From contig CAJVZI010000001.1 in NCBI GenBank assembly GCA_913020665.1, positions 1-64,000 of the forward strand: 64,000 bases of DNA, written 5' to 3'. Under the pieces are notes generated by a model. It was not told where the DNA came from. It saw only the letters and a program-made list of their open reading frames with translations, and ran no database searches. Origin of the DNA: an uncultured bacterium (lineage in GTDB: Bacteria > Fidelibacterota > Marinisomatia > Marinisomatales > UBA1611). Of this stretch, positions 1 to 9,244 are shown one piece after another; the first letter of the stretch is position 1, and each line of letters starts with the position of its first letter. Both the position numbers and the translations under genes were made by a program.

Positions 1-2581
1 GGAGTCTGATATTCTCTTTCATATCATTCGGTACTGGTATCTCACCTACCCAGTTCTTTATTTTAAATTTTCCTGATGCATTTTGTTCAAAAAGATCTTT
101 CTGTGCTATATGTATGATCGTTTGAAATAGCCAGAAAAGTTGACCTCTAGCATCACTTGCATTAAGATCGCCAGTTCTTTTGAGTATTCTATCAGCGCTC
201 TCTTCATCAATTTTTAGACTCTCTGTCAGTATCTTCTTGCAATGTTCCTTGTCAGGCTTTTCTAGTTTGAATACCTCATTATATGCGGAATCGATTGACG
301 GAAACTCCCATCCCGGGTCATCATTATCCTTAAGCCTTTCGGTCAATATGAAAGCGATCTTATTCTTTTTAGATTGATATTTTTCATCTAGAAATTCTTC
401 CATGATGAATTTCAATAGGTCTTTTGAGCTTTGATCGATCCACTGGATGTCGTCAATCAAGAATATGATATTCTTATCTTGGTCATCAAGTAGATTATTG
501 ATCATGTTTAATAGTGCGATCTTTATTTCTCTATCAGAACTTGCAAGATTCTCCTCAGGGCTTAGAGGAGGTAAAAACACACCTGCAATGGGCATGACCG
601 CATTATACACACTGGATATAGCAGATTCTATCTGTTGGTATTTGGCGTTATCTGACCCAAGAAGGTTTATCTTGAAATGACCAGCCAGGGCTTGTTTGAA
701 AATATAGTATGGGTCAAGGTCACTATCTTTTTCTTCCGTATTTTCTGTATCTATAGGGGTCTGACACTGGCCACGTAAAACAACTAAACCTCCTGGTTCA
801 TCTGGGTTTTCTTTGATCTGAAATCTATCGCCATTCTTATTTTTTGTATCTTCAATGATATTATTCGCCATTGCAGATTTTCCCACACCTGAGGGGCCAG
901 ACAACTTTATCGCGATCGAACTATTTTCTTCATTATTTAGGAATTTTTCATAGAAATCTTTTACGACACCATATATTTCAGGAGGAACATAATCATGCCT
1001 GGCAATTAAAGCGGTTAGTCCAGTCAACTCACTATCAATTTCTTCAACCGTATCAGTTTCGATCTCCACTTCCCTTTGCCAGGGTAATAGTTTATTAAGG
1101 TAAAGAACGATCAAAAACATTGCTATTGTAAAAAACGCTGAATAGATCATAAAAAGGAATTCTCCCGTACAAATTGCAAAGCCTATGCCTGCAAAAGACA
1201 AGAACGTGATGAAAAAGTATTTCGGTGAGACAGCGTCTTCTCTTTCATCAAGTGACAACCCTAAAATGAAAGCACTAGCAAGTGCTGAAATAGATAAAAA
1301 GAAAATGAATCCATATAAGCTATCGATCGGTTTCATGACCAGGAGTTCTGAGAAGTAACATACGATACCAAGTGTGATCGCAAGTGCAGAGGCTACTCCT
1401 TTGCCTCGAGACATGAAAAATTCTGAGATCGTACCAAGTCTTACAGAGACGATCTTTAATAAAATAGGTGGTCCAATAAAAATACATATGCCTATAAATA
1501 AGCACCACCAGAACGATACGATCGCAAGGGTCTCTGGCATTGGCTTTAAATATTCAAGAATAGGTAATATCAACAGTGGTAGCATTTTCCCTGTAAAAAA
1601 ATAGAATGCTGCTGCCACAGAGCTAGAAAGATTGATGTCTAGTTTATATTTTCTCCCTTTTGTGCTACCAAAATCAGAAGAGTGGAAAAAACTGTAAAAT
1701 GCTACTGCAAAACAAAGTAGCAGTATATTAAGTACCAGAAACTTGTTAAAGCTTGATGTTCTGTCTCTGCTAAAACCCATAACATGCAGGTTACGTATCG
1801 CTGAATCAGAAGCTCTGTTATAGGCATATGCCTCTGCTAAAAAGAAATGGTCTCCCTCGACAATATCCAATTGCCTTACCACAGCCATTACAAGAGTTGT
1901 GCTGTTAAAACTATCAATGAGCTTATCTTTCATCTCTTTCGTCATAATGGCTTGCTCAAACTTCTCTAGCTCTTCCTCGTTGAATACAGACACGATCTCC
2001 ATTTTATTATGAACAAAATATTTTGAGGACTGGTTGAAGATGTAGAGAGCTTCATTTTCTAACTCTGAATTATTCGGCACACTGGTGAAGACCACATCCA
2101 ACTGTGGTTCCCTTCCCCACTTTCCTGTTATCTCCTCTGACATACTAGCCATTGCAGATGTTGCCGCCATGACCAATGGATCATCTACTAATTCATAGGT
2201 GCCGGTCGCAACAGGATCACTAAAAACAGAGTTCGTAAATAAACGGGTCAGCGGAAAGAAACCATAAAAGGTATCAAACGATAGTGCTATCTGTCCATTT
2301 ATATCCGTTTCTAGCGCACCTACCTTTCTTAATAATTCCTCTCGATCCGCGACTGATAAGGTGTGGCATTCATCGATCAGGTCCGAAGCAGTATCAAGGT
2401 AAACGAGTCCTTTTTCGAATAATTCTACATTACCGCTTTCTGCCATGCCAAACCAATAATAAGTATCAGCGTGCTTTATTGATTCTTTGATGGTACTTAG
2501 AGTATCTACTTTTTCGCTAGAATACCCAAATGAGTTAAATATTAAAAAGGGGAAAAAGAGGTATAAAAGTTTAATTATCAT
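1..2581 (-). CDS. Membrane-anchored AAA_16/STAND-like ATPase with N-terminal signal peptide and multiple TM helices; C-terminus truncated by the window edge
   Basis: Translated by eye from ATG at 2581 (complement): MIIKLLYLFFPFLIFNSFGYSSEKVDTL..., open without a stop to position 1, so absent from the ORF track. Walker A SGPSGVGKSAMAN near 868-905, Walker B IIFLIDDIQWID near 434-472, several hydrophobic segments encoded at about 1110-1780. Confidence 0.85.
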   Translation of the reverse strand, partial: MIIKLLYLFFPFLIFNSFGYSSEKVDTLSTIKESIKHADTYYWFGMAESGNVELFEKGLVYLDTASDLIDECHTLSVADREELLRKVGALETDINGQIALSFDTFYGFFPLTRLFTNSVFSDPVATGTYELVDDPLVMAATSAMASMSEEITGKWGREPQLDVVFTSVPNNSELENEALYIFNQSSKYFVHNKMEIVSVFNEEELEKFEQAIMTKEMKDKLIDSFNSTTLVMAVVRQLDIVEGDHFFLAEAYAYNRASDSAIRNLHVMGFSRDRTSSFNKFLVLNILLLCFAVAFYSFFHSSDFGSTKGRKYKLDINLSSSVAAAFYFFTGKMLPLLILPILEYLKPMPETLAIVSFWWCLFIGICIFIGPPILLKIVSVRLGTISEFFMSRGKGVASALAITLGIVCYFSELLVMKPIDSLYGFIFFLSISALASAFILGLSLDEREDAVSPKYFFITFLSFAGIGFAICTGEFLFMIYSAFFTIAMFLIVLYLNKLLPWQREVEIETDTVEEIDSELTGLTALIARHDYVPPEIYGVVKDFYEKFLNNEENSSIAIKLSGPSGVGKSAMANNIIEDTKNKNGDRFQIKENPDEPGGLVVLRGQCQTPIDTENTEEKDSDLDPYYIFKQALAGHFKINLLGSDNAKYQQIESAISSVYNAVMPIAGVFLPPLSPEENLASSDREIKIALLNMINNLLDDQDKNIIFLIDDIQWIDQSSKDLLKFIMEEFLDEKYQSKKNKIAFILTERLKDNDDPGWEFPSIDSAYNEVFKLEKPDKEHCKKILTESLKIDEESADRILKRTGDLNASDARGQLFWLFQTIIHIAQKDLFEQNASGKFKIKNWVGEIPVPNDMKENIRL

Positions 2582-2695: not shown

Positions 2696-4459
2696 CTACT
2701 CATCTTTCGCGCCTAAAAGTATTTTCTTCAATGCTATGATCAACAGATCTTTTCTTTTGTTATAAAATTCGTCAAAATCTTTGATATCATATGATACGTC
2801 TAGTGGAATATAATTATCTTCTAAATATTCTTTTTTCTCTATCTCACTTTCCATATCTAACCAATCTTTGAACTCCCTTTTGTTTTTTACTCTGTTCTTC
2901 CTTTCTTCAAGCATTTGGAGGTTGGGAATGGTATCTTTTTTTGTTTGCCATTCCTCATATTTATCTCCTTTACCGATTGAACTTAAATGATTAAAAGAGA
3001 AGAAGTAAGTTGGGTGTATATGATCTTGATCAAAGTTCTTTGTGTTATATTCAAATTGTGGGTAAAGAATGCTTAACACGACAAAGGCTTGACGACCTTT
3101 TTTCTTCTGTAGAAGGTCCTCTAGGTCCTCTTCAGTGATCTCGAGTGTCTTGCCTGGAGTATTCAGGTTGGTTTTTAAATGGTCAAAATCAAAAGATTTA
3201 CGTTTCAGTTTAAATCCATCTTCTTTTGAACCTTCCCGAAGATAGCTTCTTAGATTTGCAAGTGCCTGATCGCCATGTGTGCCAAAGAATCCGGTGAGTA
3301 ATGCATGCTGTAAATATTTCTTGAACTGGTTACGTTCCTTGGTTTTGGTATCGCCACCCTTATAAATATGATATACTATAGGGATAACAGAATTTCTGGA
3401 AGTTAGGGTCATTCCATCATAGCCTAACAAATTTAGAATTGATACTGTTTCACTTATCGCAGTGTAGATACCACCCCAATTGGTTTTTATCTCATTGATC
3501 TTTTCTGGTCCAAAACTTCTAACTCTGAAAAGTATAGGATCATCCAAGAGGAATAAACATGTTCTCATTACAAAGTCTATATCAAAATTGAATTTTCTGC
3601 CCTGTTCATTAATGCTTTTCAGAAGGTCTTCGACTCGATCTCGAGCATTTTCCCAACTAGCTGTGATCGTTGACATAAGGAGATCAGTTTTAGATAATTG
3701 AGTACCACCGCTGTTTACTCTGATAAAAATGTCTAATACATCATCTATGCCCATATCCTTTAAAGTAAAACACATCAAGGGATCATCTATTCTGATCCGT
3801 CTATATAAAGTTCTCAATGTCTTCTTTATGACCGGACTATTTGTAGTGACTAATTTTTTATCATGCGCTCTTTCTTTTAATTTTCTATACTCTTCGTCAA
3901 TTGATGAAGCATCCTCCCAAGATAAGACCTCATTTACTTTGTACCATAGTTTGTCCGGTTGGTTACTTTGGTCAGTATCAGGAAGAAACTTGAATTCATA
4001 CTTAAAATCTTCACCTGTTCTAGGCAAAAGGTTTAAAAAGAGTACTCGTTTTGGATATGCTTCAGGATTATCAAATCGTTTGCGAGGTGTTTTATACGTG
4101 TATGTACCATTTAGAGCTATGTTCAATGATGTCAATCGCTGTTGACCGTCTAAAACACTTACAATACTTTTTTTGCTCGAAAGAGATGCTTTTTGGTTGC
4201 GACTATACCTTGTGTCATAATGTTTGATAAAATTATAAAAAACATTACTGTTTATGGCCGTTTGATCATTTAACTCCCATAGCAAAAAAGTACCTATTGG
4301 GAAACCTTGCATTATCGAATCAAAAAGCCCCTCGATCTGCGGGGTATCCCAAACAAATTTTCTCTGTAGAGCTGGTAGAAATAGCTCATTCTTTCTGATC
4401 ACTTCTACAGTCTCTGCTATGGTTTGACCGCTATAACCTTTTTTACGTCTAATTCCCAT
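2696..4459 (-). CDS. DUF262 / DUF1524 (HNH-like) family protein, GmrSD-like
   Basis: N-terminal LPALQRKFVWDTPQIEGLFDSIMQGFPIG and VLDGQQRLTSL (DUF262 DGQQR motif); C-terminal DQDHIHP...IPNLQMLEERKNRVKNKREF (DUF1524/HNH-like). Confidence 0.85.
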   Translation of the reverse strand: MGIRRKKGYSGQTIAETVEVIRKNELFLPALQRKFVWDTPQIEGLFDSIMQGFPIGTFLLWELNDQTAINSNVFYNFIKHYDTRYSRNQKASLSSKKSIVSVLDGQQRLTSLNIALNGTYTYKTPRKRFDNPEAYPKRVLFLNLLPRTGEDFKYEFKFLPDTDQSNQPDKLWYKVNEVLSWEDASSIDEEYRKLKERAHDKKLVTTNSPVIKKTLRTLYRRIRIDDPLMCFTLKDMGIDDVLDIFIRVNSGGTQLSKTDLLMSTITASWENARDRVEDLLKSINEQGRKFNFDIDFVMRTCLFLLDDPILFRVRSFGPEKINEIKTNWGGIYTAISETVSILNLLGYDGMTLTSRNSVIPIVYHIYKGGDTKTKERNQFKKYLQHALLTGFFGTHGDQALANLRSYLREGSKEDGFKLKRKSFDFDHLKTNLNTPGKTLEITEEDLEDLLQKKKGRQAFVVLSILYPQFEYNTKNFDQDHIHPTYFFSFNHLSSIGKGDKYEEWQTKKDTIPNLQMLEERKNRVKNKREFKDWLDMESEIEKKEYLEDNYIPLDVSYDIKDFDEFYNKRKDLLIIALKKILLGAKDE

Positions 4460-4475
4460 CTTTCATTCCTATCTA

Positions 4476-5021
4476 TTAATCAAGAACAAATTTCATTTGG
4501 CCATTATAGATGTCGCTCTCGTTTATCCAATCAAAATAATAATAATCCAGAATTAATGTGTCACCAACCATGATCTTAACTGGTGCTATCATGTTCGATA
4601 CCTCACCATCTGCGTTACTTACCGATGTAATATTTGAAGTTGGAACTTCCATTCCACTAAAACCAGTAATATAGGTTGTATCATAAGAAACCCATACAAG
4701 GTCATCTGTCAAGCCACGGTGAATGTAATAACCTAACGTATCACCCAACTCCCAGAATAAGTTCGACTCCCAATAGAATTTTATAAATTCTGCTGGAATA
4801 TTATCTTTATACGCAATTCCTCTAACTCTATAGAGTGTCTGCCAGTTGAATGGGTCTATGCTTAGGTGGTAATAACCATTTTGGTCTTTTGTGATCCCAG
4901 TGTCTTCATATATGATCTCGAAACTGTAATTAGAAGCTTGAAACAGATCATCCTCTACCTGATCAGAACAACCAATAAAAATTATATAAAAGGTCAGTAA
5001 AAATTTTGTTCCTCTAAACAT
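4476..5021 (-). CDS. Putative lipoprotein, unknown function
   Basis: N-terminal MFRGTKFLLTFYIIFIGCSDQ resembles a lipoprotein signal with lipobox-like IGC. Confidence 0.6.
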   Translation of the reverse strand: MFRGTKFLLTFYIIFIGCSDQVEDDLFQASNYSFEIIYEDTGITKDQNGYYHLSIDPFNWQTLYRVRGIAYKDNIPAEFIKFYWESNLFWELGDTLGYYIHRGLTDDLVWVSYDTTYITGFSGMEVPTSNITSVSNADGEVSNMIAPVKIMVGDTLILDYYYFDWINESDIYNGQMKFVLD

Positions 5022-5136: not shown

Positions 5137-5703
5137 TTACTCTTTTGGTGCAACGCTAGAACTACCTTTTATTCGGTCGATGGCCTGATCTAATGCATCA
5201 AATGCCTGCCGAGCTTTAAATTCATTATAGAGCGCTTCTTCTTTCTTCGCTTCTGATCTTGCGGCAGCCTTTGCCTCTTCTCTGGCCTTATTCGCATCGT
5301 AAGTTACCATAACAAAGACCCTATCTTTGAAGATCTCTGTTTTTTCAATGGTACATCCTTTTAACGTGGTATTCACCAGCGATTTTGATACAGATTCCGT
5401 GAATTCTGTTGCGCCTGCCTCGGCGCCCATGCCTGATGCCTGCATGTGATCATTTAAAGCAGAATTAACAGTGGTCTCTACAGCTCTTGCCACCTCTACT
5501 CTAGCGCGCTCCGTAGCTACTTGTTTGGAAAGATTAAATTGCGGACGTAGTGCATCTCCAACACCTACAAACTTATCTTCAAACTTTGGAGGGTTTAGAT
5601 ACCACTCTGGAAGATCTTTATTTGATAAAGGTTTTGGCTTGGACCCAGCACACCCAAAGAAAATTAACATTGCTATTAAAGTGATAAGATTAGTTTTGTA
5701 CAT
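5137..5703 (-). CDS. LPP20-family-like lipoprotein
   Basis: Lipobox FFGCAGSKP; LPEWYLNPP...VGVGDA...A..RARVEVARAVE pattern typical of LPP20 lipoproteins. Confidence 0.7.
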   Translation of the reverse strand: MYKTNLITLIAMLIFFGCAGSKPKPLSNKDLPEWYLNPPKFEDKFVGVGDALRPQFNLSKQVATERARVEVARAVETTVNSALNDHMQASGMGAEAGATEFTESVSKSLVNTTLKGCTIEKTEIFKDRVFVMVTYDANKAREEAKAAARSEAKKEEALYNEFKARQAFDALDQAIDRIKGSSSVAPKE

Positions 5704-5801: not shown

Positions 5802-7052
5802 TCAATCATTGTGAAATAATTTTTCATAATAATTATCTGTCATTTCATGGTCCATTGAACTAATAAAACCTGAGAAAGAAAAATAGCTGACCATACGGTC
5901 AATATCTTTCATCCAAAATGGTAAATATTTTGGCTTATTGATGAGTCCTTCTTTTTTCATCTTAAGCACAATCGGTATATCATTTAGGTCTATTTTCCCA
6001 GTAAACAATATCTCTAGTTCATTTAATTTGCCTTTATTTACAGCAGCCCTAAAAAGATTATGAACTCTGATCATACCATCAAGGTATACAATATCCTTCG
6101 TGAATGGAGCACCTCCTGATACTACACCGCCTCTAAACACCCTGCGTGCATTTTCAAAGGCATCTGTTTTCAATCTTGTTCTATCCTTAAAAAATCTGTA
6201 GACATCTATAAAACTTGCTCCATCGATCGCCATCTGGATCGCAACCACACGGTCTGATATACGATTCATCCGTTCGATATCAATACAACCTGTGATAAAC
6301 TCTGAAAAAACAGCAAGTCCTTCTTGTGTTTTGGTAACAGCACCATAATTTGCTCCTAGGAGCTTGATCTTATCTTGCGCTCTTCCATTTAAAGATGTTG
6401 CAACATGTACTAATGCCTCATGATTTATAAGTTGGTCGACATCTTTTTTTGTAAAACTTGCTCCTTTCCTTAACCTTATCCTCTTTGAACTTGCGGTAGC
6501 TTTAGCAGAAATATTATCAACCACTAAAATTTCTGGACTTTCATTACCAAAAATACCTTTGATCTTTTTTTCCATCATTTCACCAACCTCCTTGGCAGTC
6601 ATAAGATCCTTATTACTGACCCTGGAACTGTTTTGATAATATTCCATAACAGAAGAAAATTTATTAGCAAGATCCAGTGGAGTTGTTTTTCCATCACGCA
6701 GTTTACCCTTCGGTAATCCGTATATATTTGAAGATATCTTAAAAAACTCTTTTTTACCACAGTGGCTGATCAAATTCATACCAGCTTCTATATTATGAAG
6801 TTTTGTTTTTAACCATTCATCAAAAGGGGTATCACCCAAAAGCGCCATAGCCTTATCTAGTCTATGGCGTACTGGAGCACCATCAAAAGTGGGGTATGTA
6901 ATATTTGGTAGTTTTGCTGATCCTGATCGGAAAAAATTATATCGTATAGATGAGGGCCAATTCAAATGGCTTAGTATCCTTACTTTTCTGCTTGCTTTAT
7001 AGAGGATATTCGCAAGCTTTATAAGTCTGAGCTTGTCTTTTTGATCCAACAT
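5802..7052 (-). CDS. DUF1704 / QEGLA-motif protein (putative metallopeptidase fold)
   Basis: NHEALVHVATSLNG (HExxxH) followed by TKTQEGLAVFSEF (QEGLA motif). Confidence 0.8.
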   Translation of the reverse strand: MLDQKDKLRLIKLANILYKASRKVRILSHLNWPSSIRYNFFRSGSAKLPNITYPTFDGAPVRHRLDKAMALLGDTPFDEWLKTKLHNIEAGMNLISHCGKKEFFKISSNIYGLPKGKLRDGKTTPLDLANKFSSVMEYYQNSSRVSNKDLMTAKEVGEMMEKKIKGIFGNESPEILVVDNISAKATASSKRIRLRKGASFTKKDVDQLINHEALVHVATSLNGRAQDKIKLLGANYGAVTKTQEGLAVFSEFITGCIDIERMNRISDRVVAIQMAIDGASFIDVYRFFKDRTRLKTDAFENARRVFRGGVVSGGAPFTKDIVYLDGMIRVHNLFRAAVNKGKLNELEILFTGKIDLNDIPIVLKMKKEGLINKPKYLPFWMKDIDRMVSYFSFSGFISSMDHEMTDNYYEKLFHND

Positions 7053-7059
7053 ATTTGAC

Positions 7060-8352
7060 TTACTTGATTATTTTACCTATCAGCTCGTATTCATTTGCTT
7101 CAAGGATCTCTACATCATTGAATGTACCGACCTCAGCAGTGTTCTTTATATGTATAATATTATCTATCTCTGGAGAATCATACTCTGAACGACCAACACT
7201 TACCTCACCTTCACTCTCATCGACAATCACTTTTAATGTCTTGCCAATGAAAGACTCATTTTTTTCTAAACTGATCTCATGCTGTATTTCGAGGATCTCA
7301 TTCTTCCTGTTATCTTTTACTTTCCTAGGAATGTCATCTTTTAGATCAGCAGCTAAAGTACCCTCTTCTTCTGAGTAAGTAAAAATGCCGAGCCGGTCAA
7401 AACGTATTTCTTCTACAAAATCTTTAAGCGTGTAATAATCATCTTCTGTTTCACCTGGATGACCAACAATAAGTGTAGTACGTAGTGCAATATTTGGCAC
7501 TGCCTCTCTTAACCTAGATATCCTATTTTTGATCCCATCCTGACCTAGTCCTCTTCTCATTGCTTTGAGCATATCATCAGACGCATGTTGGATGGGCATA
7601 TCTAGATAGTTACATACTTTATCACAATTGGCGATCGCATCAATGATACGTTGGGATAAATGGGCAGGATGAGCATAATGAACACGGATCCATTCTATGC
7701 CATTTATTGTATTCAATTCTTTCAGAAGATCACTAAGGTAAACCTTTTTTTCCAGATCCCATCCATACGAAGTTGAATCCTGAGCGATCACTAGTAATTC
7801 TTTGGTCCCATTTTCAGCCAAACGTTCTGCCTCGCCCATGATAGATGATATGGTCCTACTTTTTTGTAAACCTCGCATGATTGGGATACTGCAAAAAGAG
7901 CATCCATTATCACATCCTTCAGCTATTTTGATATAAGCATAATGATTAGGGGTCATTAATGAACGAAAAAATAGCGGGTCATCCTTAGCAAATTCTTTTC
8001 CTGTTAAAAATGAAACGATCTGTTGATGATCATTGCTACCAAATATCCTGTCTACTTCCGGTATCTCTTTTTTGAGCTCTTCTGGATATCTTTCAGATAG
8101 GCAGCCCATAACAACTAATTCTTTTAATGAACCGGTCTTTTTCATTTCTGCTGCCTGCAGAATAGTGTCCACTGATTCTTCTCTAGCTATGTCTAAAAAT
8201 CCACAAGTATTGACAACAATAGTGTCCGCCTTTTCAGGGTCTTTTGTGATCGTAACATTGGTTTTGTCCAATCCTCCCAAAAGTATCTCAGAATCAACAA
8301 GATTCTTAGCGCAGCCTAAACTTATGAGATTTAATGTCTTTTTATTTTTCAT
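7060..8352 (-). CDS. rimO: Ribosomal protein uS12 methylthiotransferase RimO (radical SAM)
   Basis: N-terminal LISLGCAKNLVDSE, radical SAM CDNGCSFCSIPIMRG, C-terminal TRAM-like region. Confidence 0.95.
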   Translation of the reverse strand: MKNKKTLNLISLGCAKNLVDSEILLGGLDKTNVTITKDPEKADTIVVNTCGFLDIAREESVDTILQAAEMKKTGSLKELVVMGCLSERYPEELKKEIPEVDRIFGSNDHQQIVSFLTGKEFAKDDPLFFRSLMTPNHYAYIKIAEGCDNGCSFCSIPIMRGLQKSRTISSIMGEAERLAENGTKELLVIAQDSTSYGWDLEKKVYLSDLLKELNTINGIEWIRVHYAHPAHLSQRIIDAIANCDKVCNYLDMPIQHASDDMLKAMRRGLGQDGIKNRISRLREAVPNIALRTTLIVGHPGETEDDYYTLKDFVEEIRFDRLGIFTYSEEEGTLAADLKDDIPRKVKDNRKNEILEIQHEISLEKNESFIGKTLKVIVDESEGEVSVGRSEYDSPEIDNIIHIKNTAEVGTFNDVEILEANEYELIGKIIK

Positions 8353-8359
8353 GATAATT

Positions 8360-9244
8360 TTAATTATTCTCCAACCCCAATAAACTATCTACATATGATA
8401 TTGGATCAAAAGGTTCGAGGTCTTCTAAACTTTCTCCAACCCCAATAAATTTAACTATAATTTCAAGCTCATCATAAAGAGGGAAAACGATCCCTCCACG
8501 CGCTGTTCCGTCCAACTTGGTCAATATTGCACCATCAAGCGTATGTTGCTTATTGAATTCTTTCGCCTGCACCAAAGAATTCTGACCAATACAGGCATCT
8601 AGAGTAATAAGTGGCCTAACGTTAAATTCTGAAAATCTTGTATCAATAACCCTATACATTTTATCTAATTCAGACATAAGGTTGGTGCTAGTGTGCAAGC
8701 GGCCTGCTGTATCAACTATGACTATGCCACTGCCTCTGGAGCTTGCAGATTCTAATCCATCAAAAAGCACTGATACAGGTTCACTACTATTTTCATTACA
8801 GATCAATCGGCAACCTACTCTATCGCTCCATACCTTAAGTTGATCTACAGCTGCCGCACGATATGTATCTGCAGCCACTAGAGTAACATCAAAACCAGAT
8901 GTTTTATACATATTTGCTAATTTAGCTGCCGATGTGGTCTTGCCAGATCCATTTACACCTACTATCGGTATGACGCATGGGATCTTATCTATATTCAAAT
9001 CGGTCCGGTCAGGCAATAATTCTACAAGTTTATCCCGAACAATCTTTGTAAGATCTTTACCAGAGTATCCATTAACTAGATCTATTACCACCTGGACGGT
9101 ATCATATCCCATATCCGTTTGAAGGAGGTTTTCTTCAAGGTTATCTAGATCGTCAGAAGAAATTCCCTTACCCATAACAGCATTTAATGCCTGGGATATT
9201 TGTGATCTAGATCTAGAAAGTGCTTTGAATAATTTACTTAACAC
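8360..9244 (-). CDS. ftsY: Signal recognition particle receptor FtsY
   Basis: SRP GTPase motifs GVNGSGKTTSAAKLA, DTYRAAAVDQLK, DTAGRL, TKLDGTARGG, and FIGVGE..EDLEPFD at the C-terminus. Confidence 0.95.
   Translation of the reverse strand: MLSKLFKALSRSRSQISQALNAVMGKGISSDDLDNLEENLLQTDMGYDTVQVVIDLVNGYSGKDLTKIVRDKLVELLPDRTDLNIDKIPCVIPIVGVNGSGKTTSAAKLANMYKTSGFDVTLVAADTYRAAAVDQLKVWSDRVGCRLICNENSSEPVSVLFDGLESASSRGSGIVIVDTAGRLHTSTNLMSELDKMYRVIDTRFSEFNVRPLITLDACIGQNSLVQAKEFNKQHTLDGAILTKLDGTARGGIVFPLYDELEIIVKFIGVGESLEDLEPFDPISYVDSLLGLENN

Follow-up and report, generated by a model that had tools for sequence, protein, structure and literature searches.

A truncated STAND-type ATPase gene with a predicted exported region and about seven transmembrane helices at a contig edge in a Marinisomatales genome

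The locus and its reading frame

We analysed a 64,000-base stretch of DNA (hereafter the window) from an uncultured bacterium of the Marinisomatales, corresponding to bases 1–64000 of contig C1 (CAJVZI010000001.1), such that the first base of the window is also the first base of the contig. The source metagenome-assembled genome comprises 1.83 Mb on 125 contigs and is ∼70% complete. The left end of the window contains a series of minus-strand genes (Table 1), the first of which encodes a large ATPase and runs off the contig edge.

The initial annotation had described this gene as a minus-strand frame of about 860 codons, open from an ATG, and closer inspection bore this out. The frame contains no stop codon, is open at its 3′ end, and displays a codon score of 0.21 bits per codon (versus −0.04 to −0.46 in the five other frames) that is positive in each third of the ORF. 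Its codon use is like that of the neighbouring genes and its GC content resembles that of its surroundings. The ATPase gene is real, and is truncated at its 3′ end.

Table 1. Features at the left end of the window and at the right end of contig C21
Feature	Position	Strand	Residues or size	Remarks
Membrane STAND-type ATPase CDS	2..2581	minus	860 codons	ATG at 2581; 3′ end cut by contig start
Signal-peptide-like N-terminus	2522..2581	minus	1–20	hydropathy peak 1–19, K at residue 4
Exported region	1742..2521	minus	21–280 (∼260 residues)	no Pfam family; low-confidence models
About seven TM helices, N-out/C-in	1094..1741	minus	281–496	hydropathy and loop charges
AAA_16-type STAND NTPase	2..1009	minus	525–860	Pfam, motifs, alignment
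NTPase motif LIARHD			525–530	
NTPase motif Walker A, GPSGVGKS			562–569	
NTPase motif PYYIF			624	
NTPase motif Walker B, IIFLIDDIQWID			705–716	
NTPase motif ILTER			745	sensor-like T-R strand
IPVPNDMKENIRL			848–860	junction to missing winged helix
DUF262/GmrSD_N protein, PADLOC candidate HEC-05	2696..4459	minus		probably no functional partner of the ATPase
Small lipoprotein-like exported protein	4476..5021	minus	181 aa	no family
LPP-like lipoprotein	5137–5703	minus		conserved flank of variable spot
MATCAP	5802–7052	minus		conserved flank of variable spot
RimO	7060–8352	minus		conserved flank of variable spot
FtsY-like	8360–9244	minus		conserved flank of variable spot
C21 right end	L068:9343–15921	all minus		cut TerB (∼130+ aa), 669-aa TerB, 388-aa TerB, DUF4262, two RCK-type genes

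The DUF262 gene beside the ATPase is a known solo defence candidate, matching PADLOC HEC-05 at 4e-180. Conservation of the two genes side by side was not supported: the DUF262 protein has relatives in 403 plasmid records, such an ATPase was absent from the neighbourhood at all four of the plasmid loci opened, and of the 245 phylum genomes searched, 10 (its own included) have DUF262 matches, none of the others containing a relative of the ATPase. The DUF262 protein is therefore probably not a functional partner of the ATPase, and the two would share only an island. None of the four relatives used for comparison has a match to the small lipoprotein-like protein that follows.

Domain layout of the ATPase

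The signal peptide, exported region, multi-helix membrane domain and AAA_16/STAND-like NTPase proposed in the initial annotation were all recovered by hydropathy, charge bias and Pfam analyses, the first of them as a signal-peptide-like start. Hydrophobic stretches occupy residues 281–300, 321–342, 350–372, 396–416, 424–445, 455–474 and 476–496, with no transmembrane peak after residue 501, so that by hydropathy none lies inside the NTPase. Loops 1, 3 and 5 carry 4, 4 and 2 lysines or arginines and the C-terminal linker carries 2, as opposed to counts of 1, 1 and 0 for loops 2, 4 and 6; this pattern obeys the positive-inside rule and thus points to a topology with the N-terminus outside and the C-terminus inside the cell.

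A Pfam search of exported residues 21–280 returned nothing above chance level, and no sensor family in Pfam matched the membrane ATPase. A model of the whole truncated protein, built without relatives, was useless (mean pLDDT 37), and one of residues 131–280 was weak (mean pLDDT 57); with low confidence, the exported region may be mostly helical up to residue ∼155 and then form a small alpha/beta domain (∼155–275). A CsgG/LpoB/TolB-like identity for that alpha/beta domain (residues 141–275), suggested by eye, was rejected: local scores against a CsgG/LpoB-type domain of a related genome were reached by 475 and 63 of 1000 shuffled sequences, Pfam gave no match, and Foldseek found no fold match below E 0.001.

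The motifs and profile matches of the NTPase place it in the AAA_16/STAND class. The Pfam AAA_16 model matches with E = 1.6e-9 and 38.9 bits, above its curated cut-off of 32.6, and NB-ARC and nSTAND models match more weakly. Walker A and an hhhhDDxxWxD Walker B are present with the spacing of STAND proteins, while the hhGRExE slot ahead of Walker A is degenerate, reading LIARHD (with G and E replaced). A profile constructed from six STAND modules of the phylum, whose parent proteins are by sequence of the cyclase-AAA_16-winged helix-TPR type, finds the protein at 1.3e-13 (single-sequence search space), in an alignment that spans Walker A, PYYIF, DDIQWID (the DDxxWxD motif), the ILTER strand and IPVPNDMKENI (the VPxxI junction).

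We compared this layout with 17 other STAND (AAA_16) proteins of the phylum. Most begin with a class III cyclase (as read by eye); L004 starts with a kinase-like domain instead, and L010 with a SARP/AfsR-like one. None of the 17 carries transmembrane helices ahead of the NTPase (the N-terminus being partly masked in L002 and L096), and the layout is therefore new within the proteins examined, in agreement with the earlier claim that it is unusual for the class. The protein looks like a rare rearrangement: the kind of signalling protein is known, and the order of its domains is new. A separate case is L007, in which a cyclase-AAA_16 STAND protein (frame −1) carries approximately four transmembrane helices after its STAND module; the phylum may thus also hold membrane variants with the reverse polarity.

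In the relatives the VPxxI junction runs directly into a winged-helix start resembling RIDxLxxxLKxxLxxASVIGxxF, which is followed by TPR-like repeats. The contig start thus cuts the window protein right behind its NTPase module, exactly where that winged helix begins, and by homology its missing C-terminus should consist of a winged helix and TPR-like repeats. The initial annotation had placed a C-terminal effector or output domain beyond the window; given how the homologues continue, that lost portion more probably carries the sensor. Searches of the same genome by contig-end pattern and with a winged-helix/TPR profile (the latter run without a positive control) did not find it.

The membrane ATPase is known from a single truncated copy. 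At E ≤ 0.001 there were no other relatives among the 245 phylum genomes and none in plasmids or phages; the N-terminal 510 residues matched nothing in plasmids up to E = 10, and the NTPase part matched only distant AAA_16 proteins there. Scans of genomes and viral contigs were also empty, but the 8-residue patterns used reach only near-identical relatives, so that other phyla may hold some.

Gene content of the MATCAP–GH1 interval

The FtsY–RimO–MATCAP block is kept in relatives; the LPP gene accompanies it in G001 and, at a greater distance, in G021. The MATCAP gene itself encodes a bacterial protein of that family (tyrosine carboxypeptidase-like; 6e-111) and is kept beside RimO and FtsY within the genus. 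What lies beyond the block varies from genome to genome. In G001 the LPP gene is followed by a convergent GH1 glycosidase gene and then by cysteine synthase; in G002 and G021 the same spot encodes secreted proteins with a caspase domain as well as DUF4384 proteins; G010 has a FecR-like protein, a CHASE2-cyclase (adenylate cyclase) and a CsgG-like protein; and the window genome has the lipoprotein-like gene, the DUF262 gene and the ATPase. The secreted Peptidase_C14 (caspase-domain) and DUF4384 proteins lie between MATCAP and GH1 in two relatives, at L057:3919–10507 and L059:5626–12483. By synteny the ATPase and its DUF262 neighbour belong to the MATCAP–GH1 interval, a recurrent site for variable genes, and the spot occupied by the ATPase is probably related to stress or defence.

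The GH1 and cysteine synthase genes of the window genome are located on a different contig, C21. Given the synteny with relatives, C21 and C1 probably flank one assembly gap, although a direct overlap of 8–80 bases between their ends was not found. The right end of C21 encodes TerB and RCK-type proteins (Table 1). The cut TerB gene, whose relatives are ∼150 aa in length, is probably a stand-alone TerB rather than the C-terminus of the ATPase. Across the 245 genomes no protein is related to the 669-aa TerB protein over its full length, and plasmids yielded no relatives for the TerB and RCK genes. Of the RCK-type pair, the 283-aa protein gives clear Slo-like RCK and Castor_Poll_mid matches, and the 444-aa protein, with N-terminal hydrophobic segments, was assigned by eye; together the two genes look like a split CASTOR-type channel.

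Possible modes of action and relation to known systems

The exported domain and seven-helix part hold the position that the output domain occupies in the relatives, and we therefore favour, with about even confidence, a membrane-anchored signal-transduction ATPase of the MalT or cyclase-AAA_16 STAND type, in which the exported domain and approximately seven transmembrane helices fill the N-terminal output slot, taken in relatives by a cyclase, a kinase or a DNA-binding domain. In the switch worked out for MalT, an inducer binds the sensor and the ADP-bound, closed protein becomes an ATP-bound, open multimer (PMC4381067). By analogy, the C-terminal winged helix and TPR-like repeats (predicted only, because that end lies beyond the contig) would bind a cytoplasmic trigger, and this would open an ADP-locked NTPase. 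ATP exchange would then drive oligomerisation of the NTPase, and the clustered seven-helix modules would alter the membrane or the exported domain, as inside-out signalling or as a pore.

The degenerate hhGRExE motif and the single known copy weigh against this reading. An exported domain followed by seven transmembrane helices, with the N-terminus outside, is also receptor-like and equally suits an outside-in sensor, the view taken in the initial annotation. The exported domain would in that case bind an external or envelope signal and the helices would relay it, with the STAND NTPase and the missing C-terminus serving as the output, a logic that resembles 7TM-DISM or CHASE receptors. We regard this as possible but the less probable of the two. 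The 260-residue exported region, the seven helices with their C-terminus inside, and the CHASE2-adenylate cyclase found in the same genomic spot of G010 are consistent with it; against it, the 17 phylum relatives have no membrane part ahead of the NTPase, their N-terminal domain, where present, looks by sequence like an output (cyclase, kinase or SARP), their C-terminal slot is taken by a winged helix and TPR repeats, and no sensor family matches. That the protein represents an undescribed family of receptor-like STAND ATPases, combining a periplasmic domain, a seven-helix module and an NLR-like switch and acting in a TerB/ion-channel island concerned with stress or defence, seems doubtful to us.

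A KAP-family P-loop NTPase acting as a membrane-associated scaffold, in place of a STAND protein, is quite unlikely. The KAP_NTPase model does match residues 543–732 above its cut-off (3e-7; 30.4 bits versus 20), and membrane association would be common to both, but the AAA_16 score is higher, and DDIQWID, PYYIF and VPNDMKENI are shared with AAA_16-STAND proteins, which these motifs fit better. KAP proteins carry transmembrane segments inside the NTPase, whereas here all of them precede it. That an assembly chimera or frame artefact has brought together an exported membrane protein and an ATPase unrelated to it is very improbable, since the position at a contig end of an incomplete genome and the lack of the same layout in any relative are outweighed by a single unbroken frame whose codon use is native-like in every third, a helix parity and charge bias that fit a cytoplasmic NTPase, and a GC content like that of the surroundings.

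STAND switches (such as NLRs, MalT and AVAST proteins) are for the most part soluble and respond to triggers in the cytoplasm. A STAND switch with an exported domain and seven transmembrane helices could have the cell envelope as its target or as its source of signals; as a single truncated copy, the window protein remains a lead.

The closest known systems of the cyclase-AAA_16 type include the soluble adenylyl cyclase ADCY10. A predicted STAND domain has been noted in that enzyme (PMC12802110). Among the relatives in the phylum, the cyclase-AAA_16-winged helix-TPR proteins L012, L013, L015, L016 and L007 share the NTPase module over its full length to the VPxxI junction; in the window protein the class III cyclase is replaced by the exported domain and seven helices, and the C-terminus lies beyond the contig end. 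STAND/NACHT or caspase conflict systems that work at the membrane, some with predicted periplasmic parts, are described in PMC8195603, PMC7159879 and PMC10907252; in the portions of these sources consulted, they resemble the window protein in placing STAND NTPases or conflict components at the membrane, but a chain of exported domain, seven helices and AAA_16 was not found there. MalT is a transcription factor without a transmembrane domain, and the window gene is cut before any winged helix, arm or sensor; what the two have in common is the class of NTPase and the expected switch mechanism (PMC4381067).
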